Positions 56,644 to 64,000 of a DNA stretch of 64,000 bases are shown in pieces. The number at the start of each line of letters is the position of its first letter. Position 1 is the stretch's first letter. This stretch comes from Kitasatospora sp. NBC_01246 (GTDB lineage Bacteria > Actinomycetota > Actinomycetes > Streptomycetales > Streptomycetaceae): the NCBI RefSeq assembly GCF_036226505.1, contig NZ_CP108484.1, forward strand, positions 3,968,001 through 4,032,000. The letters run 5' to 3'. The notes below the pieces were generated by a model. The model saw only the letters and a list, made by a program, of their open reading frames with translations. It did no database searches and was not told the origin of the DNA. A program made the translations under genes and the position numbers.

Positions 56644-57018
56644 TCACGCGGCGGCGTCCAGTTCGAACCAGACGCGCTTGCCGTGCTTGCGGGGGTCGGT
56701 GCCGAAGCGGTGGGTGAGGGAGCGGACGAGGTGCAGGCCCCGGCCGGAGAGGGCGTAGGGGTCGGCGGGGGTGCGGGGTTCGGGGAGGTGGGGGTTGTCG
56801 TCGGCGACGGAGACGCGCAGGGTGTGGTCGCGGAGCAGGACGACGACGAGCGGGGCGGGGCTGCCGCCGTGGCGCCAGGCGTTGATGTAGAGCTCGCAGA
56901 GGGCGAGTTCGGCGTCGTGGATGAGGTCGTCGGGCCAGCCGGCGCGGTCGAGGGCCTCGCGCAGCTCCTCGCGGGCGGCGGACCAGTCGGGCGGTTCGGG
57001 CAGGGTGAAGGCACACAT
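56644..57018 (-). CDS. HATPase_c_2 (RsbW-like) ATP-binding protein
   Basis: 124 aa. Anti-sigma-type GHKL domain: ELALCELYINAWRHGG (N box), RVSVADDNPHLPEPR (G1, DD-N variant) and ALSGRGLHLVRSLTHRFG (G2, GRGL). No membrane or kinase part. Streptomycetes have dozens of these small RsbW-like proteins, often adjacent to XRE/DUF397 gene pairs as here; the partner (a sigma factor or anti-anti-sigma) is not encoded nearby. ATG at 57018 preceded by GGAGG. Confidence 0.88.
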   Translation of the reverse strand: MCAFTLPEPPDWSAAREELREALDRAGWPDDLIHDAELALCELYINAWRHGGSPAPLVVVLLRDHTLRVSVADDNPHLPEPRTPADPYALSGRGLHLVRSLTHRFGTDPRKHGKRVWFELDAAA

Positions 57019-57348: not shown

Positions 57349-58215
57349 ATGGCTGCACGCACGAACCCCACGCTCCGCCAGCGACGCCTGGGCGCAGAGC
57401 TGCGACGGATGCGAGAGCAAGCCGGGTTTGGCGGCAGCCAGCTCGGCCGCGCCGTCGGAATGAGCCCAGCGCAGGTCACGCAGATGGAGGCCGGGAAGAT
57501 CGGCATCAGCGTGGACCGGCTGCGCACCATCGCTGCAACGTGCATGTGCATCAACGATTCACTGATCGATGCCCTCGCCGACATGATCACGGAACGCGCA
57601 AAGGTCGGTTGGTGGGAAGAGTACAGAGGCACTCTGGCCGCGGACTTCCTTGACGTCGCGGAGTTCGAAAGCCAGGCAACGAAGCTGTCCACCTACACGA
57701 TGACGTTCATCCCTGGACTACTTCAAACCGGCTCATACGCCTCCGCCGTCTTCGCGCAGACCTTTCCGCCGCTTCCTCGCCATGAGGTCGATCTCCGGAC
57801 AGCTTTCCGCATGCAGCGCCAACGCGCCATCCGATCCGGCGCCGTGCCCTACTCCGCATTCGTCCACGAAGCCGCACTGCGTATGCAGTTCAGCGGGCCG
57901 ATTGTCCTTGCGGAACAGCTCGGCGCCCTCATCGAGGACTCCGAGCAACCGAGCATCTCGGTGCGAGTAGTGCCGTTCGACATCGCTGCCATGCCCAGCT
58001 CCAGTGACAACTTCACCTACGCCGAGGGTCCGATTCCCGAGCTCGACGGAGCGCAGACCGACACGGGTCTTGGTTGTCGACTCTTCGATGCCCCGGCCCA
58101 CATGGCAAGGTTCCGATCCCTGCTCGCCCAGATCGCGTCGGCTGCCCTCTCCGAAGAGGAATCCCGAGACTTCGTGCGATCCATCAAGAAGGAAATGGAA
58201 AGCAAGCGTGGCTAG
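57349..58215 (+). CDS. Scr1-family XRE regulator (HTH_31 + DUF5753)
   Basis: 288 aa. HTH at ~8-65: LRQRRLGAELRRMREQAGFGGSQLGRAVGMSPAQVTQMEAGKIGIS. DUF5753 effector domain at ~95-270: ESQATKLSTYTMTFIPGLLQTGSYASAVFAQ, then LRMQFSGPIVLAEQLGALIEDSE and IAAMPSSSDNFTYAEGP. Such regulators control the adjacent DUF397 gene and sometimes antibiotic or development genes; BldB-partner type systems are the named relatives. ATG at 57349 after AAAGGACG. The DUF397 gene overlaps its end by 8 bp. Confidence 0.92.
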   Translation: MAARTNPTLRQRRLGAELRRMREQAGFGGSQLGRAVGMSPAQVTQMEAGKIGISVDRLRTIAATCMCINDSLIDALADMITERAKVGWWEEYRGTLAADFLDVAEFESQATKLSTYTMTFIPGLLQTGSYASAVFAQTFPPLPRHEVDLRTAFRMQRQRAIRSGAVPYSAFVHEAALRMQFSGPIVLAEQLGALIEDSEQPSISVRVVPFDIAAMPSSSDNFTYAEGPIPELDGAQTDTGLGCRLFDAPAHMARFRSLLAQIASAALSEEESRDFVRSIKKEMESKRG

Positions 58216-58411
58216 TACCGTGTGGCAGAAGTCCAGCTACTCAAGCGCAAACGATGAGTGCGTCGAAGTGCGTGCCCTGGACGGACTGGTCGAACTCCGC
58301 GAGTCCGACACGGGCGCCGTCATCGTCCGCACCACTCCCCTCAAGTTCGCCAAGTTCCTCCAGGGCGTCAAGGCCGGCGAGTTCGACCACCTCACCGACC
58401 TCACGACCTGA
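58208..58411 (+). CDS. DUF397 protein (Scr2-like partner)
   Basis: 67 aa from GTG at 58208, inside the end of the XRE gene. Sequence WQKSSYSSANDECVEVRAL then VELRESDTGAVIVRTTPLKFAKFLQGVKAGEFDHL: the SSYS-x3-ECVEV opening, VRDSK-like RESD and W/F-x-x-F-L-x-x-V-K-x-G end are the DUF397 signature. Works with the overlapping XRE regulator as antagonist or co-regulator (family knowledge). Followed by a perfect 18-bp stem terminator. Confidence 0.92.
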   Translation: MASTVWQKSSYSSANDECVEVRALDGLVELRESDTGAVIVRTTPLKFAKFLQGVKAGEFDHLTDLTT

Positions 58412-58812: not shown

Positions 58813-58832
58813 CGGTGATTCTCGGTGATTCT
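58813..58832 (+). promoter_or_regulatory. Tandem GGTGATTCTC motif
   Basis: Two adjacent exact copies of a 10-mer, covering the XRE stop codon. The same 10-mer recurs at 60485 and, inverted with one change, at 60578 upstream of this operon. Possible regulator-binding element. Confidence 0.45.
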
Positions 58833-59668
58833 CAGAGCAGCGATCGGCGCGCTCGGGCGATCACCCGATGGGCCGACGGGCCGTAGACGGCGCTCTCCGC
58901 CAACGCCTCCCATGCCCGGACATGAAGCGCGAGGTCGGCCGGGTCGTCCAACCACATTTCTGCGTGCCAGGACTCGGTGATGACCAATGCGCCATCGTGA
59001 ATGGAGAATCCGACTCCTGCGGGCACTCTGAGATCGGCATCGAACGGCACGATGCCGAGTCGGACGTTCCCGCACGCCAGCCGTGCGGCAAGTGACTCCA
59101 GCTGATCCACGAGTACGGCCGGCGAGCAGAGCCGAGAGACAAGAGCGCCTTCCCACACCAGGAAATGGAACGATCGCAAGCGATCGCCGAGGACCTTCTG
59201 GCGTTCCATCCGCGCCTCGACCGCAGCCTCGACATCGCGGATCGATGGATGGACCCTGGTATACCGGGTGAGGACCGCTCGCGCGTACTCTGCGGTCTGA
59301 AGCAAGCCGGGAATCAGGGTCGGATCGAACGACCGGCGGTCACTGGTCCTCTTGCCCTGCGCGGCGTGCGCCTCCTGCACCGGCCTCATACCGCCCGCGA
59401 GTTGACGCCGCCACGATCGGTACTGAGTCTCCACGGTCCGCAGTCGACCCACCAGTTCGGCCACCGCATCGGGCCTGCCGACGGCCTCTGCCCATGCGGT
59501 CACGTCGGCTCTGGTCGGGGACTGCCTACCGTTCTCCAGTTTGCTGACCTTGGACTGGGCCCAGCCCAGTCGTGCGGCCAAGGCGCGTCCCGACAGGCCG
59601 CTCTCGGTGCGGAGTTCACGCATCCGGGCACCGAGAGCGAGCCGTGCCTGCTGATAGTCGGTGCTCAC
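58832..59668 (-). CDS. Scr1-family XRE regulator (HTH_31 + DUF5753), second copy
   Basis: 278 aa. HTH at ~10-65: ALGARMRELRTESGLSGRALAARLGWAQSKVSKLENGRQSPTRADV. DUF5753: IPGLLQTAEYARAVLTRY, EGALVSRLCSPAVLVDQLESLAARLACGNVRLGIVPFDADLRVPAGVGFSIHDGALVITES. Only ~30 percent alike by eye to the copy at 57349, so not a recent duplicate. Its ATG overlaps the DUF6879 stop (ATGA). Middle gene of a minus-strand trio. Confidence 0.92.
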   Translation of the reverse strand: MSTDYQQARLALGARMRELRTESGLSGRALAARLGWAQSKVSKLENGRQSPTRADVTAWAEAVGRPDAVAELVGRLRTVETQYRSWRRQLAGGMRPVQEAHAAQGKRTSDRRSFDPTLIPGLLQTAEYARAVLTRYTRVHPSIRDVEAAVEARMERQKVLGDRLRSFHFLVWEGALVSRLCSPAVLVDQLESLAARLACGNVRLGIVPFDADLRVPAGVGFSIHDGALVITESWHAEMWLDDPADLALHVRAWEALAESAVYGPSAHRVIARARRSLL

Positions 59669-60420
59669 ATGCCGGAAGGTACCTGAGCCCGGAACCGCGC
59701 GTAGCGCGTTGCGTGGTGCCAGGCGGCATCGCGAGTCTGGCAGGCTCGCAGGACCTCCAGCGGGTCAGTGACCAGCTCCATCCCTACGGTGCGCTCTCCT
59801 TCGAAGTGGAAGCGCGCGACCGTGCGGGAGTCGAAGAGCCAGAAATCCGACAGCCCTGCCATTCCCGCCTCTGCCGCGTCCGAGCGCCACATGTACCGGA
59901 TGTCTTCGCCGGCCGCCACGTTGGTCCGGGCGCACGCCAACAGATACCGCTGCCCCTCGGTCGGCGGATCATCCACCAGACGGACCCGCTCGAACCTCTT
60001 GCCCTTGTCCACCATGCGGCGCACGTTCTCGAACCAGGGGTGCCCGACCTCACCTGCCGTGTCACCGGTACGAAGGAACTCGTCGTAGGAGGGCATCTGC
60101 TTGTCGGAGAGGTAGCCGGTCCGCGTCTCCAGTCGCCACGCGGTGTGCTCGAATCCGTCGTTGATGAACTCGGTGATCTTCTGCTGAGGCACGAACTCCG
60201 GCACTGACGTGGCCTCCTTCGGTGCGAACCTCACGAGCAGCTCGCGGGGGACGACGACGAAGCCCTCATCGTCCCTCACGTACTTGAGTTGCGTCACGTC
60301 CTCGGGGTCCGTCACGGCGTACCCCTGCACGACCACTTCACCAGTGTCCACATCCTCGTACAGCGTCGGGCAGTCACCAACTCCCGACGTGCTCCCGATG
60401 ACCCGCAGTCGCCTTGCCAT
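59665..60420 (-). CDS. DUF6879 protein with fused N-terminal domain
   Basis: 251 aa. The N-terminal ~65 residues (LRVIGSTSGVGDCPTLYEDVDTGEVVVQGYAVTDPEDVTQLKYVRDDEGFVVVPRELL) correspond to a small protein encoded separately in many streptomycetes. The DUF6879 domain follows from ~80: FEHTAWRLETRTGYLSDKQMPSYDEFLRTGD, GKRFERVRLVDDPPTEGQRYLLACARTNVAAGEDIRYM and SDFWLFDSRTVARFHFEGERTVGMELVTDP. Its regular partner is an XRE/DUF5753 regulator, as here. Function unknown; the co-occurrence looks like a toxin/antitoxin-like or signalling pair (inference). ATG at 60420. Confidence 0.85.
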   Translation of the reverse strand: MARRLRVIGSTSGVGDCPTLYEDVDTGEVVVQGYAVTDPEDVTQLKYVRDDEGFVVVPRELLVRFAPKEATSVPEFVPQQKITEFINDGFEHTAWRLETRTGYLSDKQMPSYDEFLRTGDTAGEVGHPWFENVRRMVDKGKRFERVRLVDDPPTEGQRYLLACARTNVAAGEDIRYMWRSDAAEAGMAGLSDFWLFDSRTVARFHFEGERTVGMELVTDPLEVLRACQTRDAAWHHATRYARFRAQVPSGM

Positions 60421-60750
60421 GGCCGTTCCTCTCGCCGAGAGACAGGAAGGTCCCATGATCGGCGCGAGCCGGGAATCCGGCAGCGGTGATTCTCGAATAT
60501 TCTCGGGTGCTGACGGGACTGTCCCGAAGGCCCCGGGGGAATCCGCGCGGACCTCGGGCACCGCGTCTGGAATATCTGCGAATCACCCACCCACCAGCGG
60601 CTTTCGTGCACCTAGCGTGCTTGTCATTGGCGTCGATCATTGACGCCCCTTGTTCGCCCCCGTCCCGGTGCGACCTGGACGGGGGCGAACAAGACGCAGG
60701 CCGGGTCGGGGGCTCCCCCCTGGCCCGAGGTGACGACGGAGGGGCAGCAG
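60421..60750. other. Divergent region DUF6879 operon / candidate RiPP operon (330 bp)
   Basis: Holds the inverted motif pair at 60485-60502 and 60569-60587. From about 60650 it is GC-rich with a repeated GGACGGGGGCG / GACCTGGACGGGGGCGA stretch. GGAGG at 60738-60742 is the ribosome site for the small ORF at 60751. Confidence 0.55.
60485..60587. promoter_or_regulatory. Inverted pair of GGTGATTC...ATATTC motifs
   Basis: GGTGATTCTCGAATATTC (60485-60502, plus) and, on the opposite strand, GGTGATTCGCAGATATTCC (60587-60569): about 15 of 18 positions shared. They flank a 66-bp core between the DUF6879 operon and the candidate RiPP operon and are likely sites of the XRE regulator. Confidence 0.5.
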
Positions 60751-60912
60751 GTGGCCATTCCCACGTTCGACGGCAAGCACGGCGGCGGGACCGGTGACGG
60801 CAAGGGCGGCGGTCAGCAGGACGACTCCAACAGCGGCAACAAGCACGGCGGCGGCGGGTCGTCCGAGGGTGGGAACTCCTCGGACGGCAAGGGCCCGGCG
60901 GACGGTAAGTAG
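60751..60912 (+). CDS. Gly/Asp-rich small peptide (53 aa), candidate RiPP precursor
   Basis: GTG at 60751, GGAGG 8 nt upstream; GTG at 60730 would add 7 residues. Hydrophobic start VAIPTF, then only Gly, Asp, Lys, Ser, Asn, Gln and His. Four Asp-Gly-Lys motifs (FDGK, GDGK, SDGK, ADGK) and two KHGGG blocks form irregular repeats. No Cys, no Thr/Ser-Cys ring pattern, so not a classical lanthipeptide. The next gene, 3 bp away, is a PIMT-like methyltransferase, which favours an aspartimide-type RiPP precursor whose Asp-Gly sites are methylated and cyclised (inference). Alternatively a disordered hydrophilic protein. Confidence 0.65.
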   Translation: MAIPTFDGKHGGGTGDGKGGGQQDDSNSGNKHGGGGSSEGGNSSDGKGPADGK

Positions 60913-60915
60913 CCG

Positions 60916-62088
60916 GTGACCGGGAAGCACGAAGCGGAGGCCGGTCGGGCCCGGCCGGCCTCCGCGCTCATCGCGAACGGGTCGCTCACCACGGACTGGC
61001 TGGCGTCGTACGACGCCGTTCCCCGTCACCTCTTCGTCCCGGACACGATCTGGCCCGGTCGGGCCGACGGCGTCCGCCAGGGCCGGGCCGTCCACCGGGA
61101 CACCGACCCGGCGGCCTGGTGGGAGGCCGTCCACTCGGACGTGCCGCTCACCACCCAGTGGGACGACGGTGAGCACACCGGGGACGACGTGGGCACCATG
61201 CCCACGTCGTCCAACTCCATGCCCACCATGGTCTTCTCGATGCTCGCCGCCCTGGACGTCGAGGACGGCCACCGGGTCCTGGAGATCGGCACCGGCACCG
61301 GGTGGAACGCCGCCCTGCTGGCCCACCGGGTCGGCTCCGGGAACGTCGTCAGCGTCGAGGTGGACCGGGCCAGCGCGGCCGACGCCGAACGCCGCCTCGC
61401 CCGCGCCGGGTACACCCCGCGCCTCGTCGTCGGGGACGGCGCCGAAGGCCACCCGGAGGCGGCGCCGTACGACCGGGTGATCGCCACCTGCTCGGTCGGC
61501 TGGGTGCCGTACCCGTGGGTGGCACAGGCCCGACCCGGCGCGGTGATCGTCGCGCCGTGGGGGCCGGAGTACGGCGGTGAGGCGCTCGTACGCCTCACCG
61601 CCGCCGCCGACGGCACGGCGAGCGGCCGGTTCGTCGGCTCGTCGGCCTTCATGCGGCTGCGCCGGCAGCGGAGCGCCCGGCCGGACAGCCTGGCCTACCT
61701 CTCCGGCCCCTGGCCCGCGGACGGCACCGCGTCCACCACCAGCCTGTCCCCCGAGGCGGTCGGCGGCTGGCTGGAGATGTTCGCCGTCGGCGTGCAACGG
61801 CCCGGGGTGTTCCCGCTGACCGAGCGCTACGACGACGGCACGTACACGCTGTGGCTGCACGACACCGCCGTCACCTCGTGGGCGACCGCCGACTGGGCGC
61901 CCGGCCGCGCCGCGTACGAGGTCGTGCAGTCCGGGCCCCGACGGCTGTGGGACGAGGTGGCGACGGCCTGGCAGTGGTGGCGCGACCAGGGCCGACCGGG
62001 CTTCGACCGCTTCGGGCTCACGGTGACCCCGTCCGGCCACACCGTGTGGCTGGACGCGCCGGACAACCCGGTGCCGCTCGGCCCGTGA
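60916..62088 (+). CDS. PIMT-like protein methyltransferase with C-terminal extension (RiPP-type)
   Basis: 390 aa. N-terminal part matches protein-L-isoaspartate O-methyltransferase: VPRHLFVPDTIWP, then SNSMPTMVFSMLAALDVEDGHRVLEIGTGTGWNAALLAHRVG (motif I, EIGTGTGWNAALLA), VVSVEVDRASAADAERRLARAGY and YDRVIATCSVGWVPYPWVAQARPGAVIVAPWG. Housekeeping PIMT is ~210 aa; here ~170 extra C-terminal residues resemble the methyltransferases of FxLD lanthipeptide, graspetide and imiditide clusters. GTG at 60916 follows the peptide stop by 3 bp, so coupled translation. Probably methylates Asp in the upstream peptide, yielding aspartimide (inference). Confidence 0.85.
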   Translation: MTGKHEAEAGRARPASALIANGSLTTDWLASYDAVPRHLFVPDTIWPGRADGVRQGRAVHRDTDPAAWWEAVHSDVPLTTQWDDGEHTGDDVGTMPTSSNSMPTMVFSMLAALDVEDGHRVLEIGTGTGWNAALLAHRVGSGNVVSVEVDRASAADAERRLARAGYTPRLVVGDGAEGHPEAAPYDRVIATCSVGWVPYPWVAQARPGAVIVAPWGPEYGGEALVRLTAAADGTASGRFVGSSAFMRLRRQRSARPDSLAYLSGPWPADGTASTTSLSPEAVGGWLEMFAVGVQRPGVFPLTERYDDGTYTLWLHDTAVTSWATADWAPGRAAYEVVQSGPRRLWDEVATAWQWWRDQGRPGFDRFGLTVTPSGHTVWLDAPDNPVPLGP

Positions 62089-63632: not shown

Positions 63633-64000
63633 TCAGTCGCTCTGGTCGTGGTCGGCGGAGGCGTTGAGGGAGGTGATCAACGTGCTGAGGCGGGAGTTCC
63701 AGTTCTGGGCCGTCTGCCCGTCGATCGCGTGCTTCTTGGCGATGTCCCGGACTGTTTTCTGGGCATTCTTCAGCTCCTGCGCGGCGTCCTCCTCCTTGCC
63801 CTGGTTGAGGCGCGCGGCGGCGCCGTCGAGGGTGTGCAACAGGTCGAGCTGGCGGTCGCGCTCCTTGGTCATCTGGGTTTGCGCCACCGCCCCGCGAAGG
63901 GCGTTGAGCTGGACGGCCGGGGCCTGGCCGCGCGGCGGGGTAGTGGCGGCGCTGGGCGTGGCCGACGGGGTCGGGAGCGCCGTCGGGGTGGTGGGCGCGG
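63633..64000 (-). CDS. Partial protein, C-terminal part (5' end outside window)
   Basis: The frame is open from 64000 to the stop at 63633. It begins with a Thr/Pro/Ala/Ser linker (TPTALPTPSATPSAATTPP) and continues QLNALRGAVAQTQMTKERDRQLDLLHTLDGAAARLNQGKEEDAAQELKNAQKTVRDIAKKHAIDGQTAQNWNSRLSTLITSLN, an all-helical module like the FIVAR or C-terminal sensory tails of streptomycete Ser/Thr kinases. The catalytic or membrane portion is not visible, so identity is open. Confidence 0.6.
   Translation of the reverse strand, partial: APTTPTALPTPSATPSAATTPPRGQAPAVQLNALRGAVAQTQMTKERDRQLDLLHTLDGAAARLNQGKEEDAAQELKNAQKTVRDIAKKHAIDGQTAQNWNSRLSTLITSLNASADHDQSD

Follow-up and report, generated by a model that had tools for sequence, protein, structure and literature searches.

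Does the pairing of a short Gly/Asp/Lys-rich peptide with a methyltransferase related to protein isoaspartate repair enzymes (PIMTs), as found in Kitasatospora sp. NBC_01246, constitute a dedicated biosynthetic operon and, if so, which aspartate is modified, how is the peptide recognized, and what controls its production? Imiditides are a recently described peptide class, and a first-pass annotation of the 64,000-nucleotide stretch of DNA analyzed here (the window) had proposed that the pair is of imiditide type, with the peptide as the substrate of the enzyme. The features of the window that bear on this question are the following:

58832 to 59668, minus strand: gene for an XRE-DUF5753 regulator (Pfam PF19054, 121 bits), overlapping the DUF6879 gene by 4 bp; by association the probable regulator of the operon.
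59665 to 60561, minus strand: gene for a DUF6879 protein (Pfam PF21806, 158 bits), divergent from the precursor gene and recurring beside such methyltransferases.
60562 to 60750, no strand assigned: divergent intergenic region, probable promoter/operator, as read from the sequence.
60738 to 60744, plus strand: ribosome binding site GGAGGGG, 6-8 nt 5' of the GTG start, as read from the sequence.
60751 to 60912, plus strand: precursor peptide gene (53 aa), with a conserved core at residues 20-50 and Asp45 as the likely modified residue.
60883 to 60885, plus strand: codon of Asp45, the predicted methylation/aspartimide site, based on column counts of 61 precursors and on alignment with the PDG site of related precursors.
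60916 to 62088, plus strand: gene for a peptide aspartyl O-methyltransferase (PAMT) of 390 aa with PIMT fold and C-terminal domain, assigned from profiles, predicted structure and a WXXXGXP motif.

The precursor reading frame extends from a GTG start at 60751 to a stop codon at 60910-60912 and encodes V/M-AIPTFDGKHGGGTGDGKGGGQQDDSNSGNKHGGGGSSEGGNSSDGKGPADGK. Its initial description proved accurate: the 53-residue product contains four DGK motifs (residues 7, 16, 45, and 51) and two KHGGG blocks (residues 9 and 31), the ribosome binding site rates as good, and the methyltransferase gene begins 3 bp past the peptide stop, with a GTG at 60916. Four DGK motifs did not arise in any of 20,000 shuffles of the peptide. 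No sigma-70 promoter was recognized by consensus in the intergenic region, and the DNA 5' of the precursor gene revealed neither a common palindrome nor a well-aligned promoter among close relatives.

The peptide is conserved beyond the window strain, across many species. When 395 Streptomycetaceae genomes were searched with the peptide core, it was found at 57 places, spread over 51 genomes and 7 of the 17 genera; with additional loci included, there are 61 distinct loci in which the peptide gene ends -7 to +12 bp from the gene of a homologous methyltransferase. Three core matches remained, two of which (L042 and L143) were rejected as precursors, being chance low-complexity matches; the third (L139) is a frameshifted, decayed precursor copy without an intact methyltransferase adjoining, both genes being broken. 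Purifying selection acts on the peptide core: over its 25 codons, pN/pS is 0.34 for the peptide as opposed to 1.2 and 1.6 in other frames of the same DNA, and variable sites comprise 21 of the 25 third positions, 12 first positions, and 11 second positions. Near-invariant residues, in the numbering of the window peptide, are G20, Q23, D24, D25, H32, G33-36, N42, D45, G46, P49, and A50; D45-G46 occurs in 60 of 60 intact precursors and P49 in 59, at a mean length of 48 residues. D7, D16, and D51 vary among the 61 precursors, which leaves D45 as the sole conserved DGK aspartate. The DGK repetition, put forward initially as the key feature, is therefore peculiar to the window strain, and the conserved signal is instead a QDD / HGGGG / N-x-x-DG-x-GPA core. 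Precursors of this type are rich in Gly (34%) and Asp (12%), contain little Pro (3.9%), and have net charges of 0 to -8; their C-terminal ten residues mostly carry a charge of -1 to 0, compared to +1 to +2 in other precursor types. Cys is absent from the window peptide and the conserved core, and the precursor lacks the two CXXCXGXG motifs that mark type II pamtides/cysimiditides.

Streptomyces sp. NBC_00239 has a further copy of the pair on a linear plasmid (L169:4343-7176), where the annotations of the two genes read "hypothetical protein" and, for the enzyme, "methyltransferase domain-containing protein"; a tblastn search of plasmid records with the peptide gave no match, this search being too insensitive for a low-complexity peptide, as the existence of the plasmid copy illustrates. 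A 359-aa helix-turn-helix protein without a DUF5753 match is encoded 5' of the plasmid-borne pair. Its location and this different upstream protein imply mobility of the peptide-methyltransferase unit and, possibly, its control by another regulator.

The enzyme matches PF01135 at residues 99-248 of 390. Its closest named model is that of graspetide methyltransferases (TIGR04188; 342.4 bits, under the cut-off of 380). The LanSA/FxLD methyltransferase model (TIGR04364; 112.5 versus 320) and models of repair PIMTs (TIGR00080, 75 versus 159; PRK00312, 100 versus 188) score far under their cut-offs. The AF2 model (pLDDT 90.9) aligns nearly end to end with the PIMT of Thermotoga maritima, 1DL5 (model residues 10-381, 307 residues, Z 25.1, rmsd 6.2), and several other PIMTs match its N-terminal 250 residues. 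The PIMT fold reported initially is confirmed, but the C-terminal extension is slightly shorter than the approximately 170 residues proposed, at about 140 (~250-390). This part consists of a strand, a helix, four strands and a helix, an arrangement published for the methyltransferase clade (PMC10787088). It contains the WXXXGXP motif at residues 355-361 (W355-RDQ-G359-R-P361), a motif that a 2026 review ascribes to the enzymes of lassimiditides, graspimiditides, and imiditides (PMC13001092) and that is present in 51 of 59 methyltransferases with the window peptide type and in 43 of 46 of the PDG types. Nine residues of the enzyme are clade-specific. The idea that the enzyme has an inverted charge to suit its acidic precursor was considered and rejected, the mean net charge of the N- and C-terminal parts being similar in both groups.

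Enzyme and peptide types coincide phylogenetically. In a quick tree of 118 methyltransferases, made without bootstrap, all 59 enzymes with the window peptide type fall on one side of a single branch (SH-aLRT 99), and the others accompany precursors with PSPDGSTPPGDGxHRK-like or KPSPDGQGPxPDPKHKK-like tails. The string DGQGP is common to the clade peptide and other precursor types, in support of a shared ancestry of the modified segment, and in alignments with other imiditide precursors, D45 falls on their PDG site. Four clade loci contain a methyltransferase without an intact precursor (L011/L061, L065, L069, and L071); L071 has a truncated precursor, and L061, L065, and L069 are nested within the clade and therefore look like losses of the precursor. 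With these four exceptions, the methyltransferase homologues have a conserved Asp-rich reading frame directly upstream. Taken together, loci with a missing or broken precursor and a retained methyltransferase (L011, L061, L065, L069, and L071) and the locus at which both genes are broken (L139) suggest that such units often decay. A further group of methyltransferases, at about 42% identity, was observed at L038, L041, and L050, where the upstream reading frames matched neither precursor type.

The absence of a visible lanthionine synthetase or ATP-grasp gene, reported at first for the window, holds over a longer range: neither a LanC nor a graspetide ATP-grasp gene is encoded within 500 kb. 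No LanC gene was found within 1 Mb of the pair, the nearest being approximately 1.2 Mb off, so that the LanB/LanC neighbors of a LanSA/FxLD context are not represented by a LanC near the window methyltransferase. The only TIGR04187 gene lies at C1 4,533,289, approximately 503 kb off, and the window locus contains no graspetide precursor. Clustering of neighboring reading frames produced, among its main clusters, no common transporter, protease, or cyclase family besides XRE and DUF6879 proteins. The proposal that the pair could be the whole pathway may hold for the modifying enzymes, yet a DUF6879/XRE-DUF5753 pair recurs alongside. The same genome also encodes a PDG-type imiditide locus (L165:4850-6132, minus strand), a third type in two near-identical copies at the right end of C1 and on contig C2 (L167 and L168; precursor GNREKDQPLDKGKAPPGNADGKVDKPDPGSDGKHRKPKQD), a graspetide locus that includes a precursor and an ATP-grasp (L166:5133-7509, minus strand), and a 1123-aa reading frame containing a PIMT domain, approximately 1 kb from a LanC gene (L001).

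The conserved adjoining precursor, the PIMT fold with C-terminal domain, and the WXXXGXP motif support the initial assignment to the imiditides, and the conserved pairing, the selection on the peptide, and the match of enzyme and peptide types in the tree support its role as substrate. The window pair is thus a conserved two-gene unit, very probably of the imiditide/type I pamtide class. The class itself is already known and large, with 1,414 type I pamtides reported (PMC13001092), among which the window clade is possibly contained, unlabeled; distinctive here are the separate clade, the unusual precursor, and the regulator link.

This link is evident from gene distances. Across 70 genomes of the genus, the matches listed include 150 DUF6879 genes; of these, 57 have such a methyltransferase within 5 kb, compared to 0.7 expected by random placement, an enrichment of approximate size given the relatedness of the genomes and an expectation that takes no account of gene islands. 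The association is rarer at graspetide-type loci than at others (3/46 versus 50/148 among the matches listed, Fisher p 1e-4). In the Kitasatospora genome, three of four DUF6879 genes and five of 20 DUF5753 genes are located within approximately 4 kb of three methyltransferase loci, namely the window pair, the PDG-type imiditide at C1:54,852, and the graspetide at C1:4,532,180. Besides the window, DUF6879 and XRE-DUF5753 genes are paired at L166:7650-9133, L165:6908-8309, and L164:5370-6803; near the last of these, the fourth pair of this genome, the searches made found no such methyltransferase. A common order on one strand is DUF6879, XRE-DUF5753, precursor, methyltransferase, whereas in the window the regulators are divergent. 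In 20 of 65 clade loci, an XRE gene precedes the pair by at most 1.6 kb on the same strand, and 32 of 65 have an XRE gene within 4.5 kb, many loci being too short to tell. DUF5753 and DUF397 proteins beside graspetides have been noted before (PMC8939145, PMC13097080); the literature searched contained no mention of DUF6879. Adjoining the first regulator pair in the window are genes for another XRE-DUF5753 regulator and, after it, a DUF397 protein (57349-58411, plus strand). A HATPase_c_2 protein is encoded at 56644-57018 (minus strand), and a similar HATPase lies between XRE and precursor genes in the PDG-type locus L165. On the other side of the pair, an 84-aa protein (63633-63887, minus strand) matches ribosomal protein S20 at 23 bits (cut-off 29.5), probably by chance.

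Our preferred reading, in which we have high confidence, is that the pair is an imiditide (type I pamtide) operon in which Asp45 is methylated and converted to an aspartimide, with specificity conferred by the clade core and expression controlled by the divergent regulators. The data directly show that the pair is conserved, that selection acts on the peptide, which family and fold the enzyme has, that its relatives with this peptide stem from a single clade, and that the regulators are associated with such loci. We infer what is catalyzed and at which residue, how the peptide is recognized and how the genes are regulated, the reaction by homology with characterized members (PMC13001092, PMC10787088). 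The methyltransferase would bind the linear 53-aa peptide and methylate the side chain of Asp45 from S-adenosylmethionine, within the invariant N-[TS]-[SN]-D-G-x-G-P-A segment; the ester would then be lost spontaneously to the backbone amide of Gly46, yielding an aspartimide that water would slowly open to isoAsp or Asp. SpaA and NmaA are linear precursors that are modified without a cyclase (PMC10787088, PMC13001092). For SpaM, replacing the C-terminal residues of SpaA is deleterious (PMC10787088). With the basic C-terminus missing in the window clade, this known recognition mode does not carry over, and specificity would likely come from the clade core (QDD, HGGGG, and GGN) rather than from a Pro-rich context and a basic C-terminal tail. 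The divergent DUF6879/XRE-DUF5753 pair would most likely control expression.

Could the modified residue be a different one? D24 (61 of 61 precursors) and D25 (60 of 61) match D45 in conservation, which makes a different or an additional site possible, with the same class of enzyme acting on the same substrate at Asp24 or Asp25 of the QDD motif, or at several aspartates. We regard this as distinctly unlikely, as the conserved aspartate common to other precursor groups is the PDG site, which aligns with D45. Moreover, Asp-Gly is the context most prone to succinimide formation. Modification of several aspartates would also depart from the known enzymes of the class, which modify one Asp (PMC13001092). 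Slightly less probable still is that the peptide becomes a substrate only after a further step encoded elsewhere, e.g., metal binding at His32 or the action of an unlinked cyclase, comparable to zinc-dependent type II pamtides and graspetides. H32 and the four glycines are invariant for no obvious reason, and most PAMTs require a folded or cyclic substrate (PMC10787088); however, the conserved core is devoid of cysteines, no cyclase is encoded nearby, and linear peptides are the substrates of type I enzymes (PMC13001092). A housekeeping role of the methyltransferase in isoAsp repair, next to an unrelated reading frame, is hardly credible: the PIMT fold and the PF01135 match would fit, but the C-terminal domain with WXXXGXP, the low scores of repair-PIMT models, the conservation of and selection on the partner frame, and the phylogenetic match of enzyme and peptide types all argue against it.

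A different view of the product, which we judge unlikely, is that the modified peptide remains intracellular and serves the DUF6879/XRE-DUF5753 proteins as a signal or ligand, making the locus a self-contained regulatory circuit without a secreted product. The enrichment of DUF6879 genes near the methyltransferases, the recurring one-strand order of regulators, precursor, and enzyme, and the lack of a common transporter or protease from the neighborhood clustering would agree with such a circuit. However, co-location equally fits plain transcriptional control, and the regulators are missing near many loci. A combined version, in which the QDD-HGGGG core takes the place of a basic tail in recognition of the peptide of this imiditide branch and the aspartimide or isoAsp form is sensed intracellularly by the linked DUF6879/XRE-DUF5753 proteins, is a speculative and rather improbable extension; if it were true, self-inflicted aspartate modification would serve as a timed signal.

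We know of no imiditide with an established biological role. The DUF6879/XRE-DUF5753 link provides a testable lead on the timing and reason of peptide production, and DUF6879, a family of unknown function, offers a new hook for locating such loci. In addition, because the clade precursor is without the traits by which substrate choice has been explained, it can serve to probe what the C-terminal domain actually reads. Only two type I members that have been expressed and tested are named in the 2026 review (PMC13001092).

Both NmaA-NmaM of Nonomuraea maritima and SpaA-SpaM of Streptomyces sparsogenes resemble the window pair in being two-gene units with a short Gly/Asp-rich precursor, an enzyme with PIMT fold, C-terminal domain and WXXXGXP motif, and no primary RiPP enzyme. 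As in imiditides/type I pamtides generally, which are present in Streptomycetaceae, there is one conserved Asp near Gly/Pro. Published type I precursors contain on average 17.3% Gly, 16.8% Pro, and 10.2% Asp, and mostly have charged termini with a basic C-terminus (PMC10787088), whereas those of the window clade are Pro-poor (3.9% versus 16.8%), neutral to acidic, and without a conserved basic tail. Compared to the PDG types examined, the QDD...HGGGG...GGN core is confined to the window clade, and the enzymes form a clade of their own. Graspetide methyltransferases (TIGR04188), including those of graspimiditides such as amycolimiditide, share a homologous enzyme (342 bits) and the expected reaction, and the regulator pair also adjoins the graspetide locus of the same genome; the window enzyme, however, stays under the cut-off of 380, has no ATP-grasp or graspetide precursor beside it, and presumably acts on a linear substrate. 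Type II pamtides/cysimiditides (FcaA-FcaM) have the two-gene organization and a central Asp-Gly in common with the window pair, but their tetracysteine zinc motif is lacking from its precursor. Canonical PIMTs share the fold, and 1DL5 the C-terminal domain as well, at approximately 20-22% identity over the structural alignment; in contrast to them, the window enzyme is paired with a dedicated peptide. Finally, XRE-DUF5753 proteins at aspartimide RiPP loci are familiar from the XRE/DUF397 and DUF5753 genes near group 11 and 13 graspetides (PMC13097080, PMC8939145), whereas the window regulator has DUF6879 as its partner and sits at an imiditide locus, and the association has been quantified.
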